From an uncultured Roseicyclus sp. (GTDB lineage Bacteria > Pseudomonadota > Alphaproteobacteria > Rhodobacterales > Rhodobacteraceae), in assembly GCA_947494975.1 (NCBI GenBank), contig CANLXA010000002.1, forward strand, positions 806,001-870,000: a DNA stretch of 64,000 nt, in the 5' to 3' direction. Both the position numbers and the translations under genes were made by a program. Positions 1,131-11,535 of the stretch are shown piece after piece (the first letter of the stretch is position 1; every line of letters begins with the position of its first letter). The notes below the pieces were generated by a model. That model ran no database searches. It worked only from the letters and a program-made list of their open reading frames with translations, and was not told the origin of the DNA.

Positions 1131-3176
1131 TCAGGACGCCGCCTCCAGCGCCGTTTCACATACGAGGGCGCGAAGGGAGACGAGGCTCATCGGCTTCCCA
1201 AAATAAAAGCCCTGAACGGCGTTGCACCCGGCGTCTTGCAGGAACTGCAGCTCATCCTTGTGCTCGACCCCCTCCGCCAGAACCGGGATGCCCAGGGAAT
1301 CGCCCAACAACAATGTCGCGCGCACAATCGCGGCGCGTTGATGATCGATATGGACGTCCTGAATGAAGCTGCGGTCGATCTTGATCTTGTCGAACGGAAA
1401 GGATTGCAGCGTGGCAAGCGACGAATATCCGGTTCCGAAATCATCCATGGCGATCCGAACACCCATCGCCTTGATGCCGCGCATGACCTCAAGGGTGGTC
1501 GCCTGATCCGCGATGATGCTGGCCTCGGTAATCTCCAGTTCCAGCCGCCCTGGATCCAGCAAGCTTTCCGTCAACGCGTCAGCCAGGTTCTCCAGAAACG
1601 CCGGTTCGACAAGTTGTTGGGGCGCGACATTCACGGCGATGCTGAACGGACGCGTCCAGGTCGCGGCTTCCATGCAGGCCGTGCGCAGAACCCACAGGCC
1701 AAGCTCGCAGATCAAACCGGTTTCTTCCGCCACGGGGATGAATTGGCCCGGCGAGATCAACCCGCGCTCGGGGTGCCGCCACCGCAACAGCACTTCACAT
1801 CCGGTCGGCTGCAGGGACCCCAACTCGTTCTGCAATTGGTAGACAAGTTCGAATTCGTCATTCGCCAATGCCTGACGCAGGTCTTGCACAAGCAGACGTT
1901 TCTGTCGGCTTTGTTCATCTAGATCCGCATCGTAGCTGCAAATCTGTGTACCCTGGCTGGCCTTGGCGCGGTGCATCGCAAGATCGGATTTCTGGACCAG
2001 GTCGTTGATATCCTCCGAACCGGTCACGCCGCTTGCCACGCCAATGGAAACGGAGAACCGGATCGCGATACCGTTGTAATCGACAGGCGGCTCCATCGCG
2101 GTGGACAGCCGTTGGGCAAAGGCATCGGCCTCGTGGACGTCCTTGATGCCCGTCTGCACAGCCGTGAATTCGTCACCGCCGGTTCGGGTGATATGCTCGG
2201 CAGGCTGACAGGCGCCTGCCAAACGGCGGGCAATGTCCTGAAGCACATGATCCCCGGCTTCATTGCCGTAGAGGTCGTTGATTTCCTTGAAATTATCCAA
2301 GTCCAACGTCAAAGCCGCCGTTAGCGTGTCAGCACCCTCTGAAGGACCGGCCGCCCGCTCCGCCAGCCATTCACTCAGCCAAAGCCGGTTGGGCAGGCCG
2401 GTGAGATGATCGTGCTTTGTCGAATGCGCGAGGCTGAGCAGGGCCTCCCCTTCCAGATCGGTTTCAAGCCGCACGGCCGCAAAGCCGACCGACAGGATCA
2501 CAGCGGTGACGCTGAAGATCAACATGCCGAGGGTTGCCTCGGCGATGATCTGGGGTGGCACGATGATCAGCGGGCTCAGCTCGATCATGATCGCACTCAT
2601 GCCGGTAAAGTGCATGGAGCAGATCGCGATGGTCATCAAGACGGCCCCGCCAAGCCAGCAATAGCGCGTGACCGGATAGGCGATCCGGTGATACGCGGCG
2701 GCGCCAAACCCGATTCCGAACAGAACCGACGTGACCAGTAACCCCGTGTCCCAATTGATCCGACCGGGGATCAGATAGGCCTTCATGCCGACATAATGCA
2801 TGACGGACACCGTCAGGCCCAACGTGGCCCCGGCAAGAAGGGTTCGCGCCAGGCTGCGACCGTTGGAGAAGATCATATTCGCGCCGAACATGCCGACCAC
2901 CGCAATGGCAAGGGAGATACCGGTCCAGGCCGGGTCATATCCATGATCGACGGCTGGGTCATAGGCCAGCATGGCGATGAAATGCGTTGACCATATCGTC
3001 GCGCCTGCAAGCAGGCCCGATAAGGGCAATTGCACCTGCTTGCGCGTGCTGCTGGCCACCGACAGCCGACGCGACACCAGAACCGACAGGCACGACCCCG
3101 TGACGCAGACAAGGGCCGCCACCAACAAAAGCCAAAGCTCATGTTCTTGAGTGAGGCACTCAAGGATCCGGTTCAT
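1131..3176 (-). CDS. MHYT sensor - GGDEF - EAL cyclic-di-GMP signalling protein, 681 aa
   Basis: Residues 1-235 form a seven-helix MHYT integral membrane sensor with the characteristic motifs THFIAM (His65), MHYVGM (His127) and MHFTGM (His189), thought to bind copper and sense O2, CO or NO. A diguanylate cyclase domain follows with an intact RTGGDEF signature (333-337). No RxxD inhibitory site is visible just before it. A C-terminal phosphodiesterase domain has EVL (461-463) in place of EAL, a common active variant, plus DDFGTG (578-583), KIKIDRSFI and AEGVE. Both activities may therefore be functional, making and breaking c-di-GMP at the inner membrane. GGTGGAG lies eight bases before the ATG. 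It is downstream of the peptide-maturation locus but separated from it by a terminator. Confidence 0.93.
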   Translation of the reverse strand: MNRILECLTQEHELWLLLVAALVCVTGSCLSVLVSRRLSVASSTRKQVQLPLSGLLAGATIWSTHFIAMLAYDPAVDHGYDPAWTGISLAIAVVGMFGANMIFSNGRSLARTLLAGATLGLTVSVMHYVGMKAYLIPGRINWDTGLLVTSVLFGIGFGAAAYHRIAYPVTRYCWLGGAVLMTIAICSMHFTGMSAIMIELSPLIIVPPQIIAEATLGMLIFSVTAVILSVGFAAVRLETDLEGEALLSLAHSTKHDHLTGLPNRLWLSEWLAERAAGPSEGADTLTAALTLDLDNFKEINDLYGNEAGDHVLQDIARRLAGACQPAEHITRTGGDEFTAVQTGIKDVHEADAFAQRLSTAMEPPVDYNGIAIRFSVSIGVASGVTGSEDINDLVQKSDLAMHRAKASQGTQICSYDADLDEQSRQKRLLVQDLRQALANDEFELVYQLQNELGSLQPTGCEVLLRWRHPERGLISPGQFIPVAEETGLICELGLWVLRTACMEAATWTRPFSIAVNVAPQQLVEPAFLENLADALTESLLDPGRLELEITEASIIADQATTLEVMRGIKAMGVRIAMDDFGTGYSSLATLQSFPFDKIKIDRSFIQDVHIDHQRAAIVRATLLLGDSLGIPVLAEGVEHKDELQFLQDAGCNAVQGFYFGKPMSLVSLRALVCETALEAAS

Positions 3177-3398
3177 TCAGAACGCTCCACCATAGGTCAG
3201 GCCGCGGGGCACCTGTGCCTGATGAAAGTGAACATCGCGTTGCGAACGGCGTTAAAAATTTGATCAGTTGCATAGAAACCAACGGGGACTAGGCGCTTGT
3301 GGCCGCCAGCATCGCGCCGGTAGGGGCAGGCGGGCCCGTGGAAAACCCGCCCGACACGCAGATCAGGCACCGCCATGCGTCGGTGGCGAGATCGCAAA

Positions 3399-3426
3399 AG
3401 CCCCCCGAGACCTATCCCGGGGGGCT
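3399..3426 (-). terminator. Rho-independent terminator after the small-peptide genes
   Basis: A nine-base perfect inverted repeat (AGCCCCCCG / CGGGGGGCT, ten-base loop) is followed on the minus strand by TTTT. It lies 80 bp past the stop of the last peptide gene and 220 bp before the MHYT gene, so it should close the peptide transcription unit. Confidence 0.75.
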
Positions 3427-3429
3427 CTG

Positions 3430-3484
3430 AGAGGTGGGGAGAACACCTCTGCGGGGTGAAGCGGCCCCAGGGGCGCGGGGCCGC
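3430..3484. other. Two further stem-loops between the peptide gene and its terminator
   Basis: AGAGGTG (3430-3436) pairs with CACCTCT (3444-3450), and GCGGCCCC (3461-3468) pairs with GGGGCCGC (3477-3484). With the terminator this makes three hairpins in about 90 bp directly 3' of the peptide reading frame, which could protect a short abundant mRNA from 3' exonucleases. The rest of the gene-free stretch 3177-3505 shows only the promoter and leader side of the MHYT gene; I see no other feature in it. Confidence 0.5.
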
Positions 3485-3505
3485 TTCGGGGGGGGGACCC
3501 GGGAC

Positions 3506-3664
3506 CTAGAAGAGGTCCTTGATCAGCTTCTTGCCGAGGTTGATCGCAATCGGTGCTGCCGCGGAGGCCAGCGCGCCCCAGAAGGCCGGTGCGACGTTCG
3601 CGTCGAGAGCGGATCCGAGACGGTCTTCACGATCGACAGAAGGGGATTGGTACGGAAGGTTCAT
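3506..3664 (-). CDS. Small peptide A of the PatG-type locus, candidate precursor, 52 aa
   Basis: This 52-residue frame has an excellent ribosome site (AAGGAG, seven bases before the ATG). It begins MNLPYQSPSVDREDRL and continues with a hydrophobic Ala-rich segment (APAFWGALASAAAPIAINL), ending in the cationic amphipathic tail GKKLIKDLF. The first 30 residues share 18 identities with the neighbouring peptide B, while the C-terminal halves diverge. That is the pattern of a common leader with variable cores. It has no cysteine or threonine, so azoline formation as in classic cyanobactins is not possible at those residues. Trp29 is a possible modification site. It is the last gene of the unit, before tandem hairpins and a terminator. 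An unmodified membrane-active peptide is the main alternative. Confidence 0.75.
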   Translation of the reverse strand: MNLPYQSPSVDREDRLGSALDANVAPAFWGALASAAAPIAINLGKKLIKDLF

Positions 3665-3704
3665 GGAAAGTCTCCTTGATTAAAGTTGAAAAATGACCCG
3701 TGCT

Positions 3705-3905
3705 TTACAGGCCGGAAATCGCCGAAACCGCGAAGTCTTTGGCCGCGGTTTTGGCGTGAGGGGCGAGGTAGTTCATTGCGGAACCGATCCCGCCCGTCAC
3801 ATCGTCCCAGCTCAAACCAAACAGAGCCGGATCGACGCCTTGCCCCATCGCCGCAGACAGACGGTTTTCGCGGTCAATGGCGGGGGATTGATAGGGGAGG
3901 TTCAT
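3705..3905 (-). CDS. Small peptide B of the PatG-type locus, candidate precursor, 66 aa
   Basis: This paralogue of the next gene starts MNLPYQSPAIDRENRL, keeps V-x-PA-x-x-G at residues 24-30, then diverges into a Gly/Ala-rich, weakly amphipathic C-terminus ending SAISGL. The frame stays open far upstream (to 4439) inside the PatG-type gene. The start is placed at 3905 because GAGAAAGGA lies directly upstream and the N-terminus then matches peptide A exactly. There are no Cys residues and no cyanobactin-type AYD recognition motif. It lies 137 bp downstream of the PatG-type gene on the same strand and shares an 18-bp leader element with that gene's internal start. I infer it is a maturation substrate; there is no experimental proof. 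Confidence 0.75.
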   Translation of the reverse strand: MNLPYQSPAIDRENRLSAAMGQGVDPALFGLSWDDVTGGIGSAMNYLAPHAKTAAKDFAVSAISGL

Positions 3906-3910
3906 GATAA

Positions 3911-3928
3911 TTCCTTTCTCAAATGGGA
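3911..3928 (-). promoter_or_regulatory. Duplicated ribosome-binding leader in front of peptide B
   Basis: The plus-strand text TTCCTTTCTCAAATGGGA matches 5247-5264 (TTCCTTTCTGAAATGGGA) at 17 of 18 positions. Read on the minus strand it holds the AGAAAGGAA Shine-Dalgarno site of peptide B. The second copy sits at the same distance from an internal ATG of the PatG-type gene. Confidence 0.7.
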
Positions 3929-4042
3929 TGGGCACGGGGGCCCGGATCAACATGGGGAAATCCATGCCGTGGATGTGCCGCAGGCGGGTGGGGCCGGCTG
4001 TGGCGCATGTCGGGCGGCACCGGGCGGGCGCCGCCGCGGCGC

Positions 4043-6262
4043 TTAATACGCACGCCAGCTGCGCAGCGGGCCGAAGGTGACGGGCATCATGCCGCTGACA
4101 TCGATCGTGTAGCGGTAGAGCTTGCGCGCCTCTTCCTCGCGGCGTTGCGGATTGAAGAATTGCATCACCACATCGTAGCATTCCGACCCGGGGCGGCTGA
4201 TCGGGCTGCGTTCCACCTCGATGGCGTTCAGCTCCAGCTTGTTGGCGATCGCATCCTTGAAGACTTCTCCAACCTGGTGGGCGTTGGTCGCGGCAAAATT
4301 CATCGCGCGGTAATGTGGTTCGATGCCCTTGTTGCGCAATTCGTAGTAGATGCGATCCAGGAAATTGCGCATCGCATCCAGCTCCGCCTTTTTCGCCCTG
4401 GACCCAAGAACGGCCTTGGTCAATGCCGCCGGGTTCCAAGAGAACATGCCACGCAGAACCGGGACGAGGACGGGCACGACATGGCCGTTATAGAGCCGGG
4501 TTTCCCCTTCGATATGACCGGCGATGGACACCCGATCGACCTTGGTGGGGCAATCCACGGCATCGGATTGGGCCGTCATCAGCTCCGCCGATTCCTGATC
4601 GGCATCGACGAACTTGTTCGGGTCAATGCCGGTCTGCTCGATCATGTATTGGACGAGGCGAGCAAACTCCAACACGGCGAACTGGCTTTGCGGCCGGATC
4701 GCGAAGACCGGGATGCCGTCGATCTCCAGGGTCCATTCCAGGGCGGTGGATTTGTCCATATTGGGCTGGAAGCCCGACGGATCGCGATAGGCCAGGAACC
4801 GCGCCATGGAGATGGCGTTGTTGGGCATGAGCGGCTTGAGCTTCTCGTTTTGCGCGACAAGACCGTCCATCGCCTGCTGGAAGTAATCCATGTTGGTTTC
4901 GGTCACGAAATCGTACCCGATCGTGCCAAGCGCAAAGACCTTGTCGTCGGCCAGCAGGTTGGATGCGTAGTGCTGCGGGCGCACGTCGTCTTGCGGGGCA
5001 TGGACGAAAGTGTTGGCGGCGGGGTCCCGCACGGTGTGACGGGGTTGGGCCGGGGTCGGAGCGGCAGAGGCAGGCGCGACATCTGCGACCGCAACGGCAG
5101 GCGCAGGCGATGGGGTGGGGGCCGCCGACGGGGCGGGTGCCTCTGCGGCAGCGGGTTCAATATCGGCAGGAGCCAGTTGGGCGGGGTCGATATCGCCTGC
5201 AGGGGTCACGAGATCGGCGGCATGATCGGTGTCAGACATCGTAATGTTCCTTTCTGAAATGGGAGCTTGGGGAGTCACCTTTTCGGCCCGAAATGGGCCC
5301 AGATGTTCGTGTAAAAGCACGAAATCCAATCGCCGGGCGGGGCGGGGGGGCTTGTCGTCTCCCGAGGGACTCGAAGGGCAGGGGACGCAAGATTGAAGGA
5401 AGATCCTTTGCAGGTCGGCGATCGGCATGTTGGGCACCAGCGCGCGGATCAGCGCGCAGAGGCCTGACACGACCGGGGCGGCGAAGCTGCTGCCGGAGAT
5501 GCTGGCCTCCGCATCATGGGAGGCATAGCGGATATCGACGCCGGGCGCGTGGATCGTCTTGTTGCGAAGGCCGGGCCCGAAATTGTTGAAATGGGCCGCG
5601 TGACCTTCGGCGTCATGGGCCCCGATGGCCAGAACATGAGCCATGGCGGCCGGTACGGTGTCGGCATTCAGCCCGTCGTTGCCCACGGCCGCGACAACCT
5701 GCACGTTCCTGGACACGCAATACTCGACGGCATCGCGCATCTCGTCACTGGGCTGGCCAGTATTCGAGAGGTGCGCGCCGCTCACATTGATGATCTCGGC
5801 ACCCTGGTCGCAGGCGGCCTTGATCGCCCGGGCAAGGGTGAATTGCGAACACCCGGTCAGCCGTCCGGCGCGATCCTCGGTGAATACGGGGATCTGAAAT
5901 GCATCGGCATGCGGCGCGATGCCCGTGCTCTTGCCGACAATGATGCTGGCCACGGCGGTTCCATGCAGGGTCTTCTGCGCAGCATCGATGGGCGCCAGGG
6001 ACCGCGTGTCGAGGTCCGGATGGTCGATATCGACACCACCATCCAGAACCGCGACCCTCACCCCGCTTCCGAACCGGGCCATCGCACGAAGCGCGCGGAG
6101 GGCATCTCTTTGGGCGTCCAGATCATACATGGCAACGGGTCCGTGCGGATGGCGCAGGCAAGGGCGCACCTTCTTCGTCAGCCCGAAAGGCACCGGAAGG
6201 TCGGCCTGCAACAGATGAAAAACGGGGGGTGGCTGCGCACGTGTACTAATAGGCGCAGCCAC
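4043..6262 (-). CDS. Subtilisin-like protease fused to a PatG-type (cyanobactin maturation) C-terminal domain, 739 aa
   Basis: Residues 60-290 are an S8 subtilase with Asp74 (VAVLDGG), His100 (LHGTAVA), oxyanion Asn195 (AAVGND) and Ser259 (SGSSFAAP), all intact. A Pro/Ala-rich linker (about 340-410) leads to a domain of about 310 residues. Its motifs (FLDRIYYELRNKGI, MNFAATNAHQ, VERSPISRPGSECYDV, YRYTIDVSGMMPVT, LRSW) match what I know of the C-terminus of PatG, the protease that cuts and macrocyclises cyanobactins. No azoline oxidase or methyltransferase domain is present. The frame opens at a GTG (6262) without a clear ribosome site; Met45 (6130) is an alternative. An internal ATG (Met342, 5239) has a strong ribosome site, so the C-terminal part may also be made alone. 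It has its own upstream region after a terminator. The two peptides downstream are the likely substrates. Confidence 0.85.
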   Translation of the reverse strand: MAAPISTRAQPPPVFHLLQADLPVPFGLTKKVRPCLRHPHGPVAMYDLDAQRDALRALRAMARFGSGVRVAVLDGGVDIDHPDLDTRSLAPIDAAQKTLHGTAVASIIVGKSTGIAPHADAFQIPVFTEDRAGRLTGCSQFTLARAIKAACDQGAEIINVSGAHLSNTGQPSDEMRDAVEYCVSRNVQVVAAVGNDGLNADTVPAAMAHVLAIGAHDAEGHAAHFNNFGPGLRNKTIHAPGVDIRYASHDAEASISGSSFAAPVVSGLCALIRALVPNMPIADLQRIFLQSCVPCPSSPSGDDKPPRPARRLDFVLLHEHLGPFRAEKVTPQAPISERNITMSDTDHAADLVTPAGDIDPAQLAPADIEPAAAEAPAPSAAPTPSPAPAVAVADVAPASAAPTPAQPRHTVRDPAANTFVHAPQDDVRPQHYASNLLADDKVFALGTIGYDFVTETNMDYFQQAMDGLVAQNEKLKPLMPNNAISMARFLAYRDPSGFQPNMDKSTALEWTLEIDGIPVFAIRPQSQFAVLEFARLVQYMIEQTGIDPNKFVDADQESAELMTAQSDAVDCPTKVDRVSIAGHIEGETRLYNGHVVPVLVPVLRGMFSWNPAALTKAVLGSRAKKAELDAMRNFLDRIYYELRNKGIEPHYRAMNFAATNAHQVGEVFKDAIANKLELNAIEVERSPISRPGSECYDVVMQFFNPQRREEEARKLYRYTIDVSGMMPVTFGPLRSWRAY
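5247..5264 (-). promoter_or_regulatory. Internal ribosome-binding site before Met342 of the PatG-type gene
   Basis: On the minus strand AGAAAGGAA lies eight bases before the ATG at 5239, which would start MSDTDHAADLV and give a separate 398-residue PatG-type protein. The 18-bp element is the second copy of the leader found before peptide B (one mismatch). It suggests the protease and PatG-type parts were once separate cistrons, or that both long and short forms are made. Confidence 0.6.
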
Positions 6263-6282
6263 CGGGAAAATGCTTTGCTATG

Positions 6283-6382
6283 AAAAAGTCTTGCTGAAAT
6301 TCGTCGTAAAAGGGTCGTGCTGAAATAGGCGGGGTCCGGTCAAACGCGTCCGGCGGAGGGTAGAAAACTGGGTCGTCTAAAA
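6283..6382 (-). promoter_or_regulatory. Direct repeats upstream of the PatG-type gene, candidate operator
   Basis: On the plus strand AAAAAGTCTTGCTGAAAT (6283-6300) and AAAAGGGTCGTGCTGAAAT (6308-6326) repeat with a 26-bp period. A degenerate third copy (GGGTCGTCTAAAAT) is near 6370-6382. They fill the gene-free stretch between the terminator at 6538 and the PatG-type start. SARP-type regulators bind direct repeats, and a SARP-like gene lies in the locus, so this is a plausible target. No confident -35/-10 pair was seen. Confidence 0.4.
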
Positions 6383-6537
6383 TGGTCTTGGTCGTGTGGG
6401 GCGATGTCGTTGCGGGAAAATGCCCAGGTTGATATCGCCTGCATTAACCCTACCGAAACCTGCTCCCGACCCAGAGTGAAAACGCCGTGAAAACGCGCGC
6501 CGATCCCGTGAAGCTGGCGCGATATGTGGCGGCCGCC

Positions 6538-6572
6538 AAAAAAAGAGCCCCCATGGACGGATCCACGGGGGC
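6538..6572 (-). terminator. Strong rho-independent terminator after the S8 protease gene
   Basis: GCCCCC-x-TGGA pairs with TCCA-x-GGGGGC around a four-base loop. On the minus strand the stem is followed by seven consecutive T after CTC. It lies 30 bp past the protease stop and separates the regulator/haloperoxidase/protease unit from the PatG-type/peptide unit. Confidence 0.85.
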
Positions 6573-6601
6573 AGTCGGCACCTTCAGGGAGGTTCGGGAA
6601 T

Positions 6602-8752
6602 TCAGGGGCCTGGAGTTGGGTGGCTGTTTCTGGCGACCGGCGGGGCAGTGGCGGGGCCGGTGCGCGCGCCATATTGCATTTCGACGTTTGGCACCGGGCG
6701 TTCCGTGGCCGGCAGGGGCAATTGCGCATCGAAACCGTCCAAGAGCGGTCGGCCCGCCGCCGCATTGCATGCCATGAGCCGCGCCACGGACGGGGCGGCA
6801 CAACTGGTGCCGATCAAGCGGGCCCGCGCGCCGGACAACACACCGATGGAGGGAATGCCGGGGCGGACGGCGCTGTGGTCCGACACGGCGATCACGTCTG
6901 AATGCGCCCCCCATTGGCGCACGTCGCCACCGGTTTCGGTGCGCAACCCGCCCGCTCCGGAATAGATCGCGGGCCGCCCGGTCTGCTGCACATATCCCGC
7001 AACCCGCGTTGTCGCGGCGCTGGAGGCCACGCCATTCAGCGCGCCATAGCCCGAGATGATGCCCAATTGCGCCGGAATGGTCTGCGTCGGGGCCTGGGGA
7101 CGCTCGGCAGAGTGCGGCGTTGCCACCCGGTTCAGGTCGACGAGGTAACTCTGCCGCCCATGGGATTTCAGGTCGCTGGGGTCGTCGTCCCGCTGCAACC
7201 AGATCAAAAGGTCCTGCGCGGGGGCCAGGGGGGCGCAAGTCGCAGTGCGCGAAAGGGCGAAATGCCAAAGGCCCGATGGCGCCCGCCGTCCTTGCCCCCG
7301 TGTAAACGCCGTCGGAACCAGCGCCACCATCACACGCCAGCGCGTGCCGCGGTGATGGTCGGCGGACATCTGGCCGATAATCTCGCCCCCCGCTTCCAGT
7401 TCGATGAACCGTCGGGGGTCCCCATCATCGCCGCCATTGGTGCCGGGATCGGCGGAGACGTCCAACTCTCCCGGCAGATCAAGGGCAACGCCGTGGGGCG
7501 GGGTCAGGGTGACGGTGTAGCCATCGGGGTCAAAGCCTTCCGGAAACCATAGCTCCAGATAGCTGGAGGTTTTGTCATCTGGCTGCACCTGCCAGCCGAT
7601 CGTGTAGGCGTCGGTATCGAAATTGGTCTCATCCAGCCGCGCATGCATCTCCGAGGCGAAATTGTTGCCCGTGGGCATGATGATGGCCGTGTCCGGCTGA
7701 ATCGCCTGACGTTCGGCCAACAGATCCTGGATCGCGATCTCCATCTCGGATTGGCCATCGTGACGCCCTGCGCTCCACCCATAGGAGAAGTTCAGGATCA
7801 GCGGCAGTTCATCCAACCCGCAGGCGGCGGCAATCCGGCTGGCGCGCTCGAACACGTAGTGGATGGCCGAGAGCATATACATCTCCTTGCCGAACCCGGA
7901 CGTGTCCCACGCGATGGTATTGGGCAGTTGCACCGCGATGATCTGGATGTCGTCGCCCATCGGATGGTCGGGGAAGAGCGTATCGTTTCCCGCCGCCAGC
8001 CCCAGGATGTGGGAGCCATGGGTCGCACTTCGCCTCAGGTGGTTGCCAAGCTCGGACATACCTGCCGCGATGGCCCCCGCCTGCCGGTAAAGCTCAGGCT
8101 CGTCATGGCCCAGATCGGCGCGCAGCAGGTCGATACCGGTATTCACGAATTCCCGGCCAAACGGCACATGGGCCTCGGGCTCGGCCACGCCCGATTGCAG
8201 CCAGCAATGGCTGATCCGGGTGCGCCCCGTGCTGTCAAGAAACGCGCGATGGGCAAAAGGCAGGCCATCGTCGATGACAGCCACAATCGCCTTGGGTGGG
8301 GTGGCGGGCGCCGTCCATGTATCCGGTGCGCTGTCCTCATTGTACACGGGCACCCAGGCTTCCGGCACAATCGGAAAATTCACCCGAAACCGTGGATTGA
8401 ACGCGGCACGCGTGCGTTGGGCGGATCGCCGGACCGATCCCAGAAACCGCGCAATCTCCGCATCTTGGCCAATATCGGGCGTGTTGGGTGGCGGGGCGAG
8501 GCTTTGGAAGGCGAAGGGCGTGATGTTCATCCGGCCCTCCGTGGGGTTCCAGAGTGGCGGCAGGCGCACCGCCATCGTGGCGTCGGATTGCGGCTCGCCG
8601 CCTTCCATAAGGGCGGTGTAGATCCCCGACGTCTCCCCGGCGATCAGGGGAAAGGAATAGGGCCGCCCAAGCTCGTTGGAAAACACCCAGCGCTCATAGG
8701 GCCCCGCATAGCGATCAATCCGTTCCTCTGGTTCGCGCTCCTGATACTTCAT
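6602..8752 (-). CDS. Large subtilisin-like (S8) serine protease, 716 aa
   Basis: The peptidase S8 fold is spread over about 500 residues, with Asp161 (VAVIDDGLPF), His245 (THGSHILGLAAG), the oxyanion Asn region (IIMPTGNNFASE) and Ser650 (IGTSCAAPSVAR). A long insert sits between the Asn and Ser motifs. There is no signal peptide, so it is probably cytoplasmic like the PatA/PatG proteases. The N-terminal 130 residues are of no type I recognise. It starts eight bases after the haloperoxidase-like gene, so the two are co-transcribed, and it ends at a strong terminator. In this setting it may perform one of two cuts on the peptides (PatA-like role) while the PatG-type protein performs the other; that division is inference. 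Confidence 0.88.
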   Translation of the reverse strand: MKYQEREPEERIDRYAGPYERWVFSNELGRPYSFPLIAGETSGIYTALMEGGEPQSDATMAVRLPPLWNPTEGRMNITPFAFQSLAPPPNTPDIGQDAEIARFLGSVRRSAQRTRAAFNPRFRVNFPIVPEAWVPVYNEDSAPDTWTAPATPPKAIVAVIDDGLPFAHRAFLDSTGRTRISHCWLQSGVAEPEAHVPFGREFVNTGIDLLRADLGHDEPELYRQAGAIAAGMSELGNHLRRSATHGSHILGLAAGNDTLFPDHPMGDDIQIIAVQLPNTIAWDTSGFGKEMYMLSAIHYVFERASRIAAACGLDELPLILNFSYGWSAGRHDGQSEMEIAIQDLLAERQAIQPDTAIIMPTGNNFASEMHARLDETNFDTDAYTIGWQVQPDDKTSSYLELWFPEGFDPDGYTVTLTPPHGVALDLPGELDVSADPGTNGGDDGDPRRFIELEAGGEIIGQMSADHHRGTRWRVMVALVPTAFTRGQGRRAPSGLWHFALSRTATCAPLAPAQDLLIWLQRDDDPSDLKSHGRQSYLVDLNRVATPHSAERPQAPTQTIPAQLGIISGYGALNGVASSAATTRVAGYVQQTGRPAIYSGAGGLRTETGGDVRQWGAHSDVIAVSDHSAVRPGIPSIGVLSGARARLIGTSCAAPSVARLMACNAAAGRPLLDGFDAQLPLPATERPVPNVEMQYGARTGPATAPPVARNSHPTPGP

Positions 8753-8760
8753 GACCGGCC

Positions 8761-9867
8761 TCAGACCTTCTGCGTCTCGGCCAGCGCGCGCTGCCAGATC
8801 CAGCTGAAATGCGGTGTGGCGGCAATGGGGATGGCCGCACCGACCTCAACGCCCATCGCCGCGGCCTCATTCGCGAAATCATGTTCAGTGAAGTCGTGGT
8901 TATCTGGCACGTAGCGACGGGCCTCTGCCGTCGCCCCGGCCCGCCCGCACATGCCCAATATGGCTTGCCCCAGGCTGGTGCCGAGCGACGCGCCCGCCCA
9001 GGTGTCAATCGGGTAATGCACACCGGCCACCGTGCGGTTCACGGCAATCCGTTCGGCCAGGCCCCGCACCATCGCGGTGCGATTGGCCAGATCGGTGAAG
9101 CCGTCCCAATCCTCGATAAGCCCGCTCAGTACCGTGGCCACGGCATAGGCCTCGGTCGCGTGGGCAGAGGGAAAGCTGCCATGGCCCGGCGTCGGGATCA
9201 TCGGCAGGATACGCCCGTCGATCTGATCGGGCCGCCGCACGGCCAGCGCATGTTTCAGGATCATCGCCGCATGGGCCGCCGCCACCTGCGTGGCCGTGAT
9301 CAACTCGAACGTGTCCTTGTGCTGGCCCAGATGCATGCCAAGGATCATGGCGAAATATTCGGTCGGGAAGCCGAGTTGCGAGGTGATTTCGGCCCCGCGA
9401 TCAGCTCTGAGATCGGCATAGTCATTCACAAACGCACATTGGCTGGCCAGCAGATCGTCGCCGGGAAGCACGAGTTCAACCAGAGTCTGCCCACCGAATG
9501 TCAGCTTTGCCGATTTTTGTCCGCCGGCCTCCGTTGCCTCATACCCGATCCGGGTCAGGAATTCGGAAACATAGAGAGAGCCACGCACCCACGTCGCCCA
9601 CCGGTCGTTGTTCTCGGTCGTGTTGAAGGCAAGCGGCGTGCCCGCGACAGCGGGGCCGGGCGGGGCCAGATGCGCGAGGCCCTCGGCGGTTGTCTGCAGC
9701 CCATAGGTCGTGGTGGCATCATAGCCGCCGGTATCTTCCGCACCCAGGAATGAGCCAAGCCCGGTGAAGCCGCCGATGCCACCGATCCCGCCGATGCCAC
9801 CAATCCCTCCAATGCCGCCGATGCCGCCAATCCCACCGATGCCGCCAATTCCGCCGTATTGTCCCAT
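8761..9867 (-). CDS. Vanadium-haloperoxidase / PAP2-type enzyme with Gly-Gly-Ile repeat N-terminus, 368 aa
   Basis: The phosphate/vanadate pocket of the PAP2-vanadium haloperoxidase superfamily is complete: Lys202...Arg209-Pro210 (KxxxxxxRP), Pro230-Ser-Ala-His233, and Arg275-x5-His281-xxx-Asp285. There are no obvious membrane helices, which favours the soluble bacterial haloperoxidase/acid phosphatase branch over lipid phosphatases. Residues 5-31 are eight GGI triplets and one GGF, followed by a Gly-rich linker. GGAAGGA precedes the ATG by nine bases. It lies between a regulator and a protease in one unit. If it is a true haloperoxidase it could halogenate the peptides (both contain Trp), but a phosphatase role cannot be excluded from sequence. 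Confidence 0.8.
   Translation of the reverse strand: MGQYGGIGGIGGIGGIGGIGGIGGIGGIGGIGGFTGLGSFLGAEDTGGYDATTTYGLQTTAEGLAHLAPPGPAVAGTPLAFNTTENNDRWATWVRGSLYVSEFLTRIGYEATEAGGQKSAKLTFGGQTLVELVLPGDDLLASQCAFVNDYADLRADRGAEITSQLGFPTEYFAMILGMHLGQHKDTFELITATQVAAAHAAMILKHALAVRRPDQIDGRILPMIPTPGHGSFPSAHATEAYAVATVLSGLIEDWDGFTDLANRTAMVRGLAERIAVNRTVAGVHYPIDTWAGASLGTSLGQAILGMCGRAGATAEARRYVPDNHDFTEHDFANEAAAMGVEVGAAIPIAATPHFSWIWQRALAETQKV
9775..9855 (-). repeat. Nine-unit, 9-bp coding repeat (Gly-Gly-Ile)
   Basis: Nine tandem 9-bp units encode GGI x8 plus GGF. Third positions vary between units (ccg/cca, atc/atg on the plus strand reading), so the amino-acid pattern is conserved beyond the DNA. This suggests selection on the protein rather than a fresh slippage event. 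Confidence 0.85.
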
Positions 9868-9894
9868 AGGGTGTTGTCCTTCCAGTTGGTCGCG

Positions 9895-11535
9895 TCAATT
9901 GATGCCGGCGGCCGCCAGCGCTTCGATCGCATCCCGGCCCAACCGGTAATCGGTCGCCGGGTGGCTGTTGCGGTATTGGCCGAGGCTGAACTTGGGAAAG
10001 TGCTTCTTGAGTGTGGTTGCGGCCTCGCGCGCATCCTCGGATCGGCCAAGAAAATGCAGCGCGATGATCCGTGCCCGGTGCGTCGACAGGTGCTGGTTGT
10101 TGGCCGCCAGCGAGCGGTCCGCGAAATCCAGTGCGCTTTGGTAATTCGCATCGGCAAGATGCGCCGTGCTGGCCAGGCTGTCATAGTAGTATCCGAACGG
10201 ATCAATGGGCGAGAGGCTCCGCGCCCGCGTCGTGGCCTCCACTGCCGCCGCCCCCTGGTCGGTAAAGGCCTTCAGGGAGCCCTTCAGAAGCCAGGCGAGG
10301 CTTTCGTTCGGATTGATCTGCAGGGCGGCATCGAACCGCTGCTCGGCCACGTCCGGATCGTGGGAAAGGATGGTATTGACGAAGCCGTCGATGGTGAGCG
10401 CGAGGCTCGATTCAGGATCAATGTCGAGCGCCCGGGCGCAGCATTCCACGGCCTTCTGCCTGTCGTGGTCGCGATCCAGCGAGTAGCCCTTGATGACGTT
10501 GAGCACGTACCATTTCGCCAGCCATGTCAGCGGCTCGGCCACGCCGTCCATACGTGAGGTCGCCTCGCTCAGATATTCCCGGCTTTTCAGGAAATCCCGC
10601 ATCGTGCGGCGGTGCATCAAGGTCGCGCCGGCAATCGTCAGATTGTGGTCGGCAATGTCGCTGAGCGCCTGCGCCTTCACATGGGCCACGGCGGAATGCG
10701 CGATGGAGCGCGCGATGGAATGGGCAATGGCGTTGAGATCCGTGTTGAGCCGGTCCAGATCGTTGCCGTCCTCCAGAAGAATCTCACGGCTCCACAGGAT
10801 CTGCCCGCTTTCGGCGGCAATGAAGTCGATGTCGCAGACGATGCAATTACCTGAGCGCCGGATCGATCCGGTGGCCAGGTAATCCACTTCCAGCGTCTGG
10901 CGGATCTCGGAGACGATGACGGGGGTTTGCACCGCTGCGCGCCCGGACAGGTGCGACAGGACGCTCAACAGCTTCGAGCGCGACAGGATGCGGCACGATT
11001 GCTCACCGATCCAATCGCCGAGCGCGCGCAGAACCGGATCATCGCCCAGATAGCTGAGCGGCAGCACGATCACCCGCGGCCGCGGGCGCCGCACGGTGCC
11101 GCCCCCGGGCGATCGGTGCAGGGCGGCGATTTGCGCGGGGTTGGAGCGGATCGAGGCGACCCAATCCTGAAAGTCGGCCTGCGGTACGTTCAGGTCTTCC
11201 AGAAACCGACCGGTATTCTGGTCCCCGACAAAGCGCACATGCTCAAGGTCCAGTTCCACATCGGCATTGGTGGTGTGGAAAAACGTATCGAATTCGGCGC
11301 CGAAAATCTTACGCAGATCCGCAAGTGCCCGGCGCAGGTTCTGATGGCCGCTGTCATAGCCGGAATAGCCCCACAGCGTGTTTTGCAGGTAGGTCCGCGT
11401 CCGTCGCCCAAGCGGCGCCGTGGCGAGCATGCAGATCAGCGCACGATGTTTGACGCCGCGAATATCCAGCACGTCACCGTTCTTCAAACGGACGGAACAG
11501 GTGCCGAACAGACTGATTTCAAGGCAGGTGCGCAT
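9895..11535 (-). CDS. SARP-like transcriptional regulator with TPR region, 546 aa
   Basis: The N-terminus (LEISLFGTCSVRLKNGDVLD, then RGVKHRALICMLATAPLGRR and LRRALADLRKIFG) is an OmpR/SARP-type winged-helix DNA-binding domain. The middle (RVIVLPLSYLGDDPVLRALG, SRSKLLSVLSHLSGR) resembles the TolB-like part found in CadC/adenylate-cyclase-type regulators. The C-terminal 250 residues are helical repeats of TPR type (CCARALDIDPESSLALTIDG, AALQINPNESLAWLLKG). The start is set at 11535, where AAGGGG lies seven bases upstream; the frame is open to 11592. It heads the minus-strand unit and is the obvious candidate activator of the protease/peptide genes downstream. The signal is unknown. Confidence 0.82.
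   Translation of the reverse strand: MRTCLEISLFGTCSVRLKNGDVLDIRGVKHRALICMLATAPLGRRTRTYLQNTLWGYSGYDSGHQNLRRALADLRKIFGAEFDTFFHTTNADVELDLEHVRFVGDQNTGRFLEDLNVPQADFQDWVASIRSNPAQIAALHRSPGGGTVRRPRPRVIVLPLSYLGDDPVLRALGDWIGEQSCRILSRSKLLSVLSHLSGRAAVQTPVIVSEIRQTLEVDYLATGSIRRSGNCIVCDIDFIAAESGQILWSREILLEDGNDLDRLNTDLNAIAHSIARSIAHSAVAHVKAQALSDIADHNLTIAGATLMHRRTMRDFLKSREYLSEATSRMDGVAEPLTWLAKWYVLNVIKGYSLDRDHDRQKAVECCARALDIDPESSLALTIDGFVNTILSHDPDVAEQRFDAALQINPNESLAWLLKGSLKAFTDQGAAAVEATTRARSLSPIDPFGYYYDSLASTAHLADANYQSALDFADRSLAANNQHLSTHRARIIALHFLGRSEDAREAATTLKKHFPKFSLGQYRNSHPATDYRLGRDAIEALAAAGIN

Follow-up and report, generated by a model that had tools for sequence, protein, structure and literature searches.

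Does a PatG-like subtilase encoded beside two small paralogous peptides in an uncultured Roseicyclus sp. constitute a peptide-maturation system, and if so, does it work in the manner of the cyanobactin pathways? The protease, P0001 (4043..6262 of the window, the 64,000-nucleotide stretch of DNA that we analysed; this and all features below lie on the minus strand), scores 431.2 bits against TIGR03895, a model that spans both PatA and PatG (curated cut-off 421.05), and contains a Peptidase_S8 domain (residues 65-292, 5387..6070; Pfam, 107.8 bits) followed by PatG_D (residues 441-585, 4508..4942; PF18047, 62.1 bits, cut-off 27) and PatG_C (residues 628-736, 4055..4381; PF18065, 124 bits, cut-off 25.9). 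The catalytic triad is intact, with Asp74, His100 and Ser259 invariant in 43 aligned rows (P0001's own row counted). The first-pass annotation had assigned the C-terminal domain to the PatG family and had named a profile search as the test; these searches put it inside the family, and the domain also matches the PatG DUF structure (4uvq) by sequence (E 3e-38) and by fold (TM-score by target 0.88). The frame runs for 739 aa from a GTG, and homology to relatives begins at about Met45 (window position 6130), which, judged from the frames of these relatives, is probably the start.

Downstream of P0001 lie the genes for precursor peptide 2 (66 aa, 3705..3905) and precursor peptide 1 (52 aa, 3506..3664), each with a ribosome-site-like sequence ahead of it (by eye); a terminator-like inverted repeat follows precursor 1 (3396..3427; also by eye, and absent from the hairpin scan's list). 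A degenerate pattern picks out these two genes and nothing else in the window (chance expectation 0), and all of their 12 nucleotide differences to the sister species (3 in precursor 2 and 9 in precursor 1) are synonymous. The MNLPYQSP peptides are real genes under purifying selection: the two small paralogous peptides of the first-pass annotation are borne out by these synonymous-only differences and by conservation in 19 precursors from 12 loci of the window's clade, in which M1, L3, P4, Q6, R12, P26 and A27 are invariant.

The clade alignment delimits a 27-residue leader that terminates in the invariant Pro-Ala and that is composed of a 12-residue tag (MNLPYQSPxxDR), a 10-residue spacer and a PatA-like site, GVDPA in precursor 2 (leader at 3825..3905) and NVAPA in precursor 1 (leader at 3584..3664). 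Thus, the precursors possess a leader (LPxQ) and N-terminal cut site of the RSII type, the last residue of the site being Ala versus Ser in the published consensus; PatA-like enzymes cleave after G(L/V)E(A/P)S, according to the available part of PMC10885120. The cores predicted from the PatA-type site (39 aa, 3708..3824, and 25 aa, 3509..3583) reach the stop codon without AYD-, SYD- or FAGDD-like ends, so that no C-terminal recognition sequence of the RSIII type is seen in either precursor. Strong precursor matches were confined to the own genome among 295 genomes of the bacterial family, and a PHROGs search returned nothing for the peptides.

The pairing of such a protease with such peptides recurs widely. 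In a survey that kept the best 80 of 322 relatives, we observed beside PatG_D/C proteases a recurring leader, MxLPxQ[SA]xPVxR, followed about 10 residues on by a PatA-type site, VxP[SA]. Using a leave-one-locus-out profile, leaders were found at 62/85 loci, some of which are close relatives of each other and hence not independent, versus 0/85 for reversed frames, and at 56 of the 70 loci outside the cyanobactin clade; 9 of the 23 loci without a leader peptide at E<0.01 belong to the cyanobactin clade. All 12 phylum-level groups sampled contain leaders, ranging from 29/31 Pseudomonadota loci to 2/8 for Planctomycetota (6/8 without), with the reservation that organism names may be wrong because many loci come from metagenome bins and that the tree of loci was built quickly, with SH-aLRT as its sole measure of support. 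The first-pass annotation's link between protease and peptides is supported: its second check, on whether relatives consistently lack an adjacent small peptide, came out in its favour at these 62/85 loci.

Simpler counts point the same way. A regular expression for the leader matched a peptide within 3 kb at 58/87 loci versus 0/87 with the reversed motif (the 87 include the sister-species copies L040 and L048, which are one record and are excluded from the counts of 85; L044 and L055 share one contig), and the motif occurred at 56/85 loci, versus a mean of 3.4 and a maximum of 18 for 300 permuted motifs. Of 76 non-cyanobactin motif peptides, 46 have a PatA-type site 9-14 residues past the leader Arg, against an expectation of 2.1. 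Accidental-looking matches in L044 (at 4301), L078 and L095 remain in the regex, permutation and cut-site counts, and two PatB homologues that are not precursors (L097 at 8663 and L122 at 8619) are counted in the regex totals and among the 83 profile seeds. At 28 control loci, chosen because their match to P0001 is limited to the S8 part rather than by a locus-wise PatG_C scan, a leader was found once, in an unlikely frame. Within loci, identity was 0.68 in the leader versus 0.33 in the core (42 pairs, 24 loci; 0.50 between loci), a comparison of little weight, biased by the regex, which itself fixes some of the leader positions. The leader's DNA pattern occurs in four IMG/VR contigs (L031-L034); neither the phage search nor the viral contigs searched with the domain yielded a relative, and the E. 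coli genomes searched with the Enterobacter locus yielded none either. These data suggest a widespread peptide-maturation module across several phyla, of which the cyanobactins are one elaborate branch.

We consider it likely that P0001 works alone as a leader peptidase of the PatA type, with dedicated substrates encoded by the two downstream genes; the peptides themselves are very probably its precursors. P0001 would recognise the leader and cut after Ala27, the cut and its position being predicted from the site pattern, and would thereby set free two linear products, of 39 and 25 residues, that probably carry no azolines and undergo neither macrocyclisation nor other tailoring. These products might be membrane-active, bacteriocin-like peptides, a tentative assignment: set against the secreted, membrane-active pairs of two-peptide or leaderless-type bacteriocins, the cores of the window are not clearly amphipathic (the fraction of shuffles as high is 0.31 for precursor 1 and 0.059 for precursor 2), and the amphipathicity of four gammaproteobacterial cores exceeds that of most shuffles.

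Which part of the system reads the leader is a separate matter. The PatG_D/PatG_C part may do so, a proposal that we make with less than even confidence. It could instead be a dimerisation or scaffold domain, the leader being read by the S8 part, an exporter or an immunity factor, and this alternative retains a real, if lesser than even, probability. According to the accessible part of PMC4259220, PatG-DUF showed no binding to PatE', plain or heterocyclised, by NMR; for the C-terminal domain of PatA/PatG a structure has been available since 2014, with no role assigned to it in print. Against another reader, no further gene was seen to recur beside leader and protease in the loci inspected by eye, nor was a recurring exporter or immunity gene seen beside protease and peptides (loci other than the window being judged by eye). 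The gammaproteobacterial loci have little else in common but a small helix-turn-helix-like gene, present in 4/6.

The neighbouring minus-strand unit encodes a divergent S8 protein, P0002 (6602..8752), whose S8 score of 18.6 bits is below the Pfam cut-off of 21.8, whose D/H/S motifs are retained in relatives and for which profile searches gave neither a PatG domain nor a TIGR03895 match; a PAP2/vanadium-haloperoxidase-like protein with N-terminal GGI repeats, P0003 (8761..9867; PAP2 47.7 bits), the conserved motif-like residues of which we take to resemble haloperoxidase motifs; and a regulator-like protein, P0004 (9895..11535; the frame is open from 11592, with a likely start at 11535). The SARP-like label originally given to P0004 was not backed by the profiles, which call TPRs and no SARP/BTAD domain. 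All six genes might form one system, with further trimming by the second subtilase and halogenation of the products by P0003, and the two units do stay adjacent in the sister Roseicyclus, in two species of Roseibium and at one locus of an uncultured alphaproteobacterium. However, the regulator/PAP2-haloperoxidase-like/subtilase trio also occurs at L159, L160 and L161, whose genomes belong to the same bacterial family and give no PatG_C match, whereas tblastn, within the flanks searched, detected none of the trio where protease and peptides are present in Tateyamaria and at six gammaproteobacterial loci. Moreover, a terminator-like hairpin (6547..6572; an 11-pair stem followed by a T run) separates the units, although the 7 such sites in the region are not above shuffles (mean 6.4). 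Since trio and protease-peptide pair each occur without the other, we rejected a single six-gene pathway as improbable; P0002 is probably outside the module. The trio being a separate unit, the halogenation step and the joint action of two subtilases on the peptides, both envisaged in the first-pass annotation, are therefore unsupported. P0003 was likewise rejected as a core tailoring enzyme because its relatives are far commoner in the family (51/149 genomes) than PatG_C (1/394; own genome in both).

A reduced cyanobactin-like pathway, in which P0001 both cuts and cyclises its substrates to head-to-tail macrocycles, is more improbable still. It draws on the breadth of TIGR03895, which covers PatA and PatG alike, and on the existence of cyanobactins without azolines (PMC4663559, in the part available), but the S8 domain of P0001 is nearer to PatA/PagA than to the PatG macrocyclase by sequence (142 bits to PatA versus 74 bits) and by fold (Foldseek TM-score by target 0.80-0.85 versus 0.70), and we accordingly rejected the view that P0001 is more likely to be a macrocyclase. 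The peptides also differ from the true cyanobactin precursors at L105 and L119 in having no C-terminal recognition sequence, and with the S8 comparison this leaves cyclisation unsupported. The earlier verdict that this is not a standard cyanobactin cluster was well founded: the genome has a single P0001-like match and a single PatG_C match, both at the same place, and thus neither a second PatA/PatG-family protease nor the cyanobactin A plus G pair, and PatB, PatC and PatD had no match at L040 and L048, the sister-species copies by which the scan represented this locus. By tblastn, Gloeothece PatB and PatC each hit 10/86 loci, a count that includes the query locus and is confined to the cyanobactin clade, and most sampled loci have no nearby heterocyclase match. 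G+C-rich DNA commonly has short frames, yet a chance origin of the two small ones here, or their being unrelated genes, is virtually excluded by the purely synonymous differences, the conservation across the clade and the large excess of leaders over reversed and permuted controls.

PatA and PatG of the cyanobactin pathways thus appear as one branch of a wider protease family. We suggest, with confidence a little short of even, that PatG_D/PatG_C reads the leader within an old system shared across phyla, which comprises one PatA-type protease and precursors bearing the tag MxLPxQ[SA]xPVxR and a cut site GVxP[SA], and whose products are either Cys-rich mini-proteins or helical peptides that are short and free of Cys; cyanobactin biosynthesis would be the branch with a duplicated protease and an added heterocyclase, and PatB a relic or second substrate that is still tagged. 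The survey ties the domain to a single leader motif and a single cut-site pattern in 12 phylum-level groups, making its role directly testable; it also brings into view a set of small peptides so far unstudied and suggests which part of the cyanobactin leader pertains to the protease system and not to the heterocyclase.

Among known precursor families, DUF5837 and DUF5840 score over cut-off on the cyanobactin precursors of L119 and L105, DUF5840 reaching one clade precursor only at 0.13; a literature search on both found no paper, nor did one under the Pfam/TIGR accessions themselves. The NCBIfam patellamide-precursor and PatB models weakly align their own leader positions to the surveyed leaders, and the LPxQxxPVxR of related precursors falls at about positions 7-17 of TIGR03678, whereas the 19 clade precursors, those of the window included, match no NCBIfam model (TIGR03678, TIGR04446 and NF042906 among them) at E<=1. 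A 2015 review states, in the part available, that cyanobactin clusters had so far been identified solely in cyanobacteria (PMC4663559). In Streptomyces scabies, SCAB_66631 is homologous only to the PatG DUF and lies beside four short peptides, resembling our locus, but the description available in PMC7369419, on which this comparison is based, gives no shared leader or cut site. Compared to PatG, P0001 is alike in the C-terminal domain, has no oxidase part and carries a less macrocyclase-like S8 domain. The closest likeness is to PatA (patellamide) and PagA (prenylagaramide), with S8 domains 35-36% identical to that of P0001, a PatG_D/PatG_C part by family model and a substrate with a leader and a G(V/L)xP[SA]-like site. 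P0001 differs from these systems in having no partner PatG, in sister copies devoid of PatB/PatC/PatD, and in putative substrates that have no C-terminal recognition sequence and whose predicted cores, at 25 and 39 residues, exceed the 3-5 of linear and the 7-20 of non-heterocyclised cyanobactins given in the available part of PMC4663559.

The locus is transcribed from the minus strand, beginning with P0004 (9895-11592; regulator-like, with TPRs), P0003 (8761-9867; PAP2/haloperoxidase-like) and P0002 (6602-8752; a divergent S8 subtilase). A terminator-like hairpin (6572-6547) lies between this trio and the S8 protease P0001 (4043-6262), which is followed by the 66-aa precursor 2 (3705-3905) and, last, the 52-aa precursor 1 (3506-3664). 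P0001 is a member of the PatA/PatG family, as its Peptidase_S8, PatG_D, PatG_C and TIGR03895 matches all exceed the respective profile cut-offs. In the predicted structure, the S8 part (approximately residues 49-328) resembles PagA and PatA and the PatG_D/C part (approximately 441-739) resembles the solved PatG DUF (4uvq), with a low-confidence linker (329-437) in between. Asp74, His100 and Ser259 are invariant in a 43-row alignment. The PatG-like proteases of three compared loci (L039, L041 and L038) have a Cys/Gly-rich linker (CGCG, CSCGG, CSCGEGG) joining S8 and PatG_D that is missing from P0001. A MHYT-GGDEF-EAL protein is encoded on the same strand (1131-3176), 3' of the precursors.

The PatG domain is rare among the relatives of the window, but widespread overall. 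With the own genome counted, 1/394 genomes of the bacterial family and 2/398 of the phylum contained PatG_C, and 1/240 of the class matched the PatG_D/C profile; the P0001 counterpart in a same-genus relative is 96% identical. A scan of one genome per species (84,980 species) returned 322 relatives, and the 80 best of these, from 79 loci, entered the survey. We added five of the 11 plasmid records with a match, along with L039, L040 (the sister-species copy of the window locus) and the window itself, giving 87 loci; leaving out the duplicate pair L040/L048 reduces this to 85. Loci were gathered by the domain alone, peptides playing no part in selection, and they span 12 groups at phylum level, among them an archaeal bin. 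A quick tree built from 88 proteins placed the window inside a 13-row alpha-/gammaproteobacterial clade (SH-aLRT 100), while 20 cyanobacterial rows, including an annotated Gloeothece PatA/PatG pair, formed a separate clade (SH-aLRT 99), hereafter the cyanobactin clade.

The pairing of such proteases with tagged small peptides recurs with a fixed architecture. Frames within 3 kb carrying [LIMFV][PA]xQxx[PAGS][VIALQ]xR were found at 58/87 loci, compared to 0/87 for the reversed motif, and relaxed inspection by eye added leader peptides at L049, L050, L056, L059, L060, L061, L065 and L102. Of the 89 motif frames, 76 lie downstream of the protease on the same strand. A scan of all start codons with duplicates removed detected the motif at 56/85 loci, versus a mean of 3.4 (s.d. 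1.9, max 18) for 300 permuted motifs. A 14-column leave-one-locus-out profile recovered the leader at 62/85 loci (E<0.01; reversed frames 0/85), 56/70 outside the cyanobactin clade and 6/15 inside it, and at E<0.1 at 73 of the 85 loci versus 8 in reversed frames. The leader, whose commonest letters give M[KR]LPxQ[SA]xPVxR, occurs at 29/31 Pseudomonadota, 3/3 Acidobacteriota, 14/25 Cyanobacteriota, 5/8 Bacteroidota and 2/8 Planctomycetota loci. With 1.5-kb flanks, a motif frame is present at 49/85 PatG loci and at 1/28 loci matching P0001 in the S8 part only, the latter apparently accidental. The leader's DNA pattern also has matches in four viral contigs (L031-L034). On a Streptomyces plasmid (L041; 5492-6205, 9095-11008), the PatG-like protease is accompanied by six small genes, five or more of which carry the tag, and by an annotated BTAD regulator gene, and in Dickeya/Enterobacter/Yersinia a small helix-turn-helix-like gene was seen by eye 3' of the precursors (L050 8474, L051 8267, L052 8430, L053 8429).

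Both small peptides of the window are genes, and they are under selection: all 12 nucleotide differences from the sister species (9 in precursor 1, 3 in precursor 2) are synonymous. By eye, a ribosome-site-like sequence precedes each. A profile of 19 precursors found the two window copies in the own genome, the next match being no better than E 0.81, and family-wide a precursor profile matched 10/295 genomes at E<=0.01, namely the own genome (two copies) and nine weak matches (E 2.7e-4 or worse) that start at profile position 6 or later.

PatA-like enzymes cleave after G(L/V)E(A/P)S (PMC10885120). An xVxP[SA] site (V, I, L or M) lies 9-14 residues (median 10) past the leader Arg in 46/76 non-cyanobactin motif peptides, versus 2.1 expected from shuffles of the same windows. 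Because P26 and A27 are invariant, along with M1, L3, P4, Q6 and R12, in the 19 precursors from 12 loci of the window clade, the cut is expected after residue 27. In the window precursors, 10 residues separate the 12-residue tag from this site. The predicted products fall into two kinds. The predicted core lacks Cys in 17/18 window-clade motif peptides, the remaining one being an accidental match, while non-cyanobactin peptides outside this clade have a median of 6 Cys (at least 4 in 46/58). The window cores are not clearly amphipathic (0.31 of shuffles as high for precursor 1, 0.059 for precursor 2) in contrast to the 22-residue gammaproteobacterial cores, whose amphipathicity exceeds that of most shuffles (0.010 to 0.043 as high); membrane activity of the products would therefore be a guess. 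By eye, some tagged peptides carry GLGD..T..G..xCxxC..R..xLN in place of the usual core (L065 5497, L080 4671, L092 8248, L106 3631, L118 3925).

In the mechanism we propose, the protease would read the leader and then cut after residue 27, probably with no tailoring thereafter, since inspection of window-clade neighbourhoods by eye revealed no recurring tailoring gene. That PatG_D/C accompanies the leader at loci without a detected heterocyclase suggests this domain as a candidate leader reader. A 2014 NMR experiment in which PatG-DUF gave no shift of PatE' counts against such a role (PMC4259220); however, PatG acts once the leader is gone and the part of that paper covered here reports no PatA-DUF binding test. 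Pfam revealed no exporter among the ten frames around the window unit, and inspection of the other loci by eye no recurring exporter beside protease and peptides; at L044, genes resembling an ABC transporter lie on the opposite strand, and at L049 a transporter-like gene lies upstream (both judged by eye).

Next to the protease, the trio is also present in two Roseibium, in the Roseicyclus sister and in one uncultured bin, and this conserved adjacency suggests some tie between the units. P0002 relatives occur in 41/198 and P0003 relatives in 51/149 family genomes (own genome included), and the two match lists place them approximately 1 kb apart or less on 20 or more contigs. All three genes are present at two loci from the same family (L159 and L160) and, with lower identity, at a third (L161); neither a protease nor a credible leader peptide is encoded in these stretches, and no PatG_C match was found in the three genomes. 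Conversely, the trio is absent within the flanks covered at the Tateyamaria and six gammaproteobacterial loci, which carry protease and peptides. We therefore treat the trio as a separate module. P0003-type proteins of this trio begin with a long GGI/GGL/GGV repeat tract kept between genera (window 8761-9867, L159 9851-10966, L160 9298-10407), and the P0002 copy of the L044 bin (3488-5574) is split over two overlapping frames, thus broken or mis-assembled.

Compared with cyanobactin loci, tblastn across 86 loci gave strong matches to PatD-like genes at 5 loci, PatB at 10 and PatC at 10 (the query's locus counted), all in the cyanobactin clade, and weak PatD-like matches at two Actinomadura loci. 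True cyanobactin precursors (L119 and L105) exceed the Pfam DUF5837 and DUF5840 cut-offs, four non-cyanobactin precursors scanned alongside gave no match, and the best DUF5840 match in the window clade was 0.13. The patellamide precursor model TIGR03678 matched 8/46 precursors (E<=0.5), a set of 46 that includes true cyanobactin precursors. In single scans it matched five of ten non-cyanobactin precursors, all in one shared register, with E values from 0.0083 to 0.28. The Gloeothece PatB N-terminus reads MRLPKLAPPVKR, and PatB model positions 1-12 align with two non-cyanobactin leaders (E 0.042 and 0.17). These PatB-model and TIGR03678 matches are weak and below cut-off; what matters is that they agree in register. 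PatB also shares its leader-like N-terminal tag with the precursors, at L042 (10383-10598), L097 (8663) and L122 (8619). The open-licence literature searched held no description of the leader outside cyanobactins, and a report elsewhere is possible. Related genes have been described in Streptomyces scabies, where a protein homologous only to the PatG DUF adjoins four short peptides (PMC7369419), in Roseomonas oryzae, with a cyanobactin peptidase gene (PMC8776678), and in Saccharopolyspora, with cyanobactin-like genes (PMC10145562).
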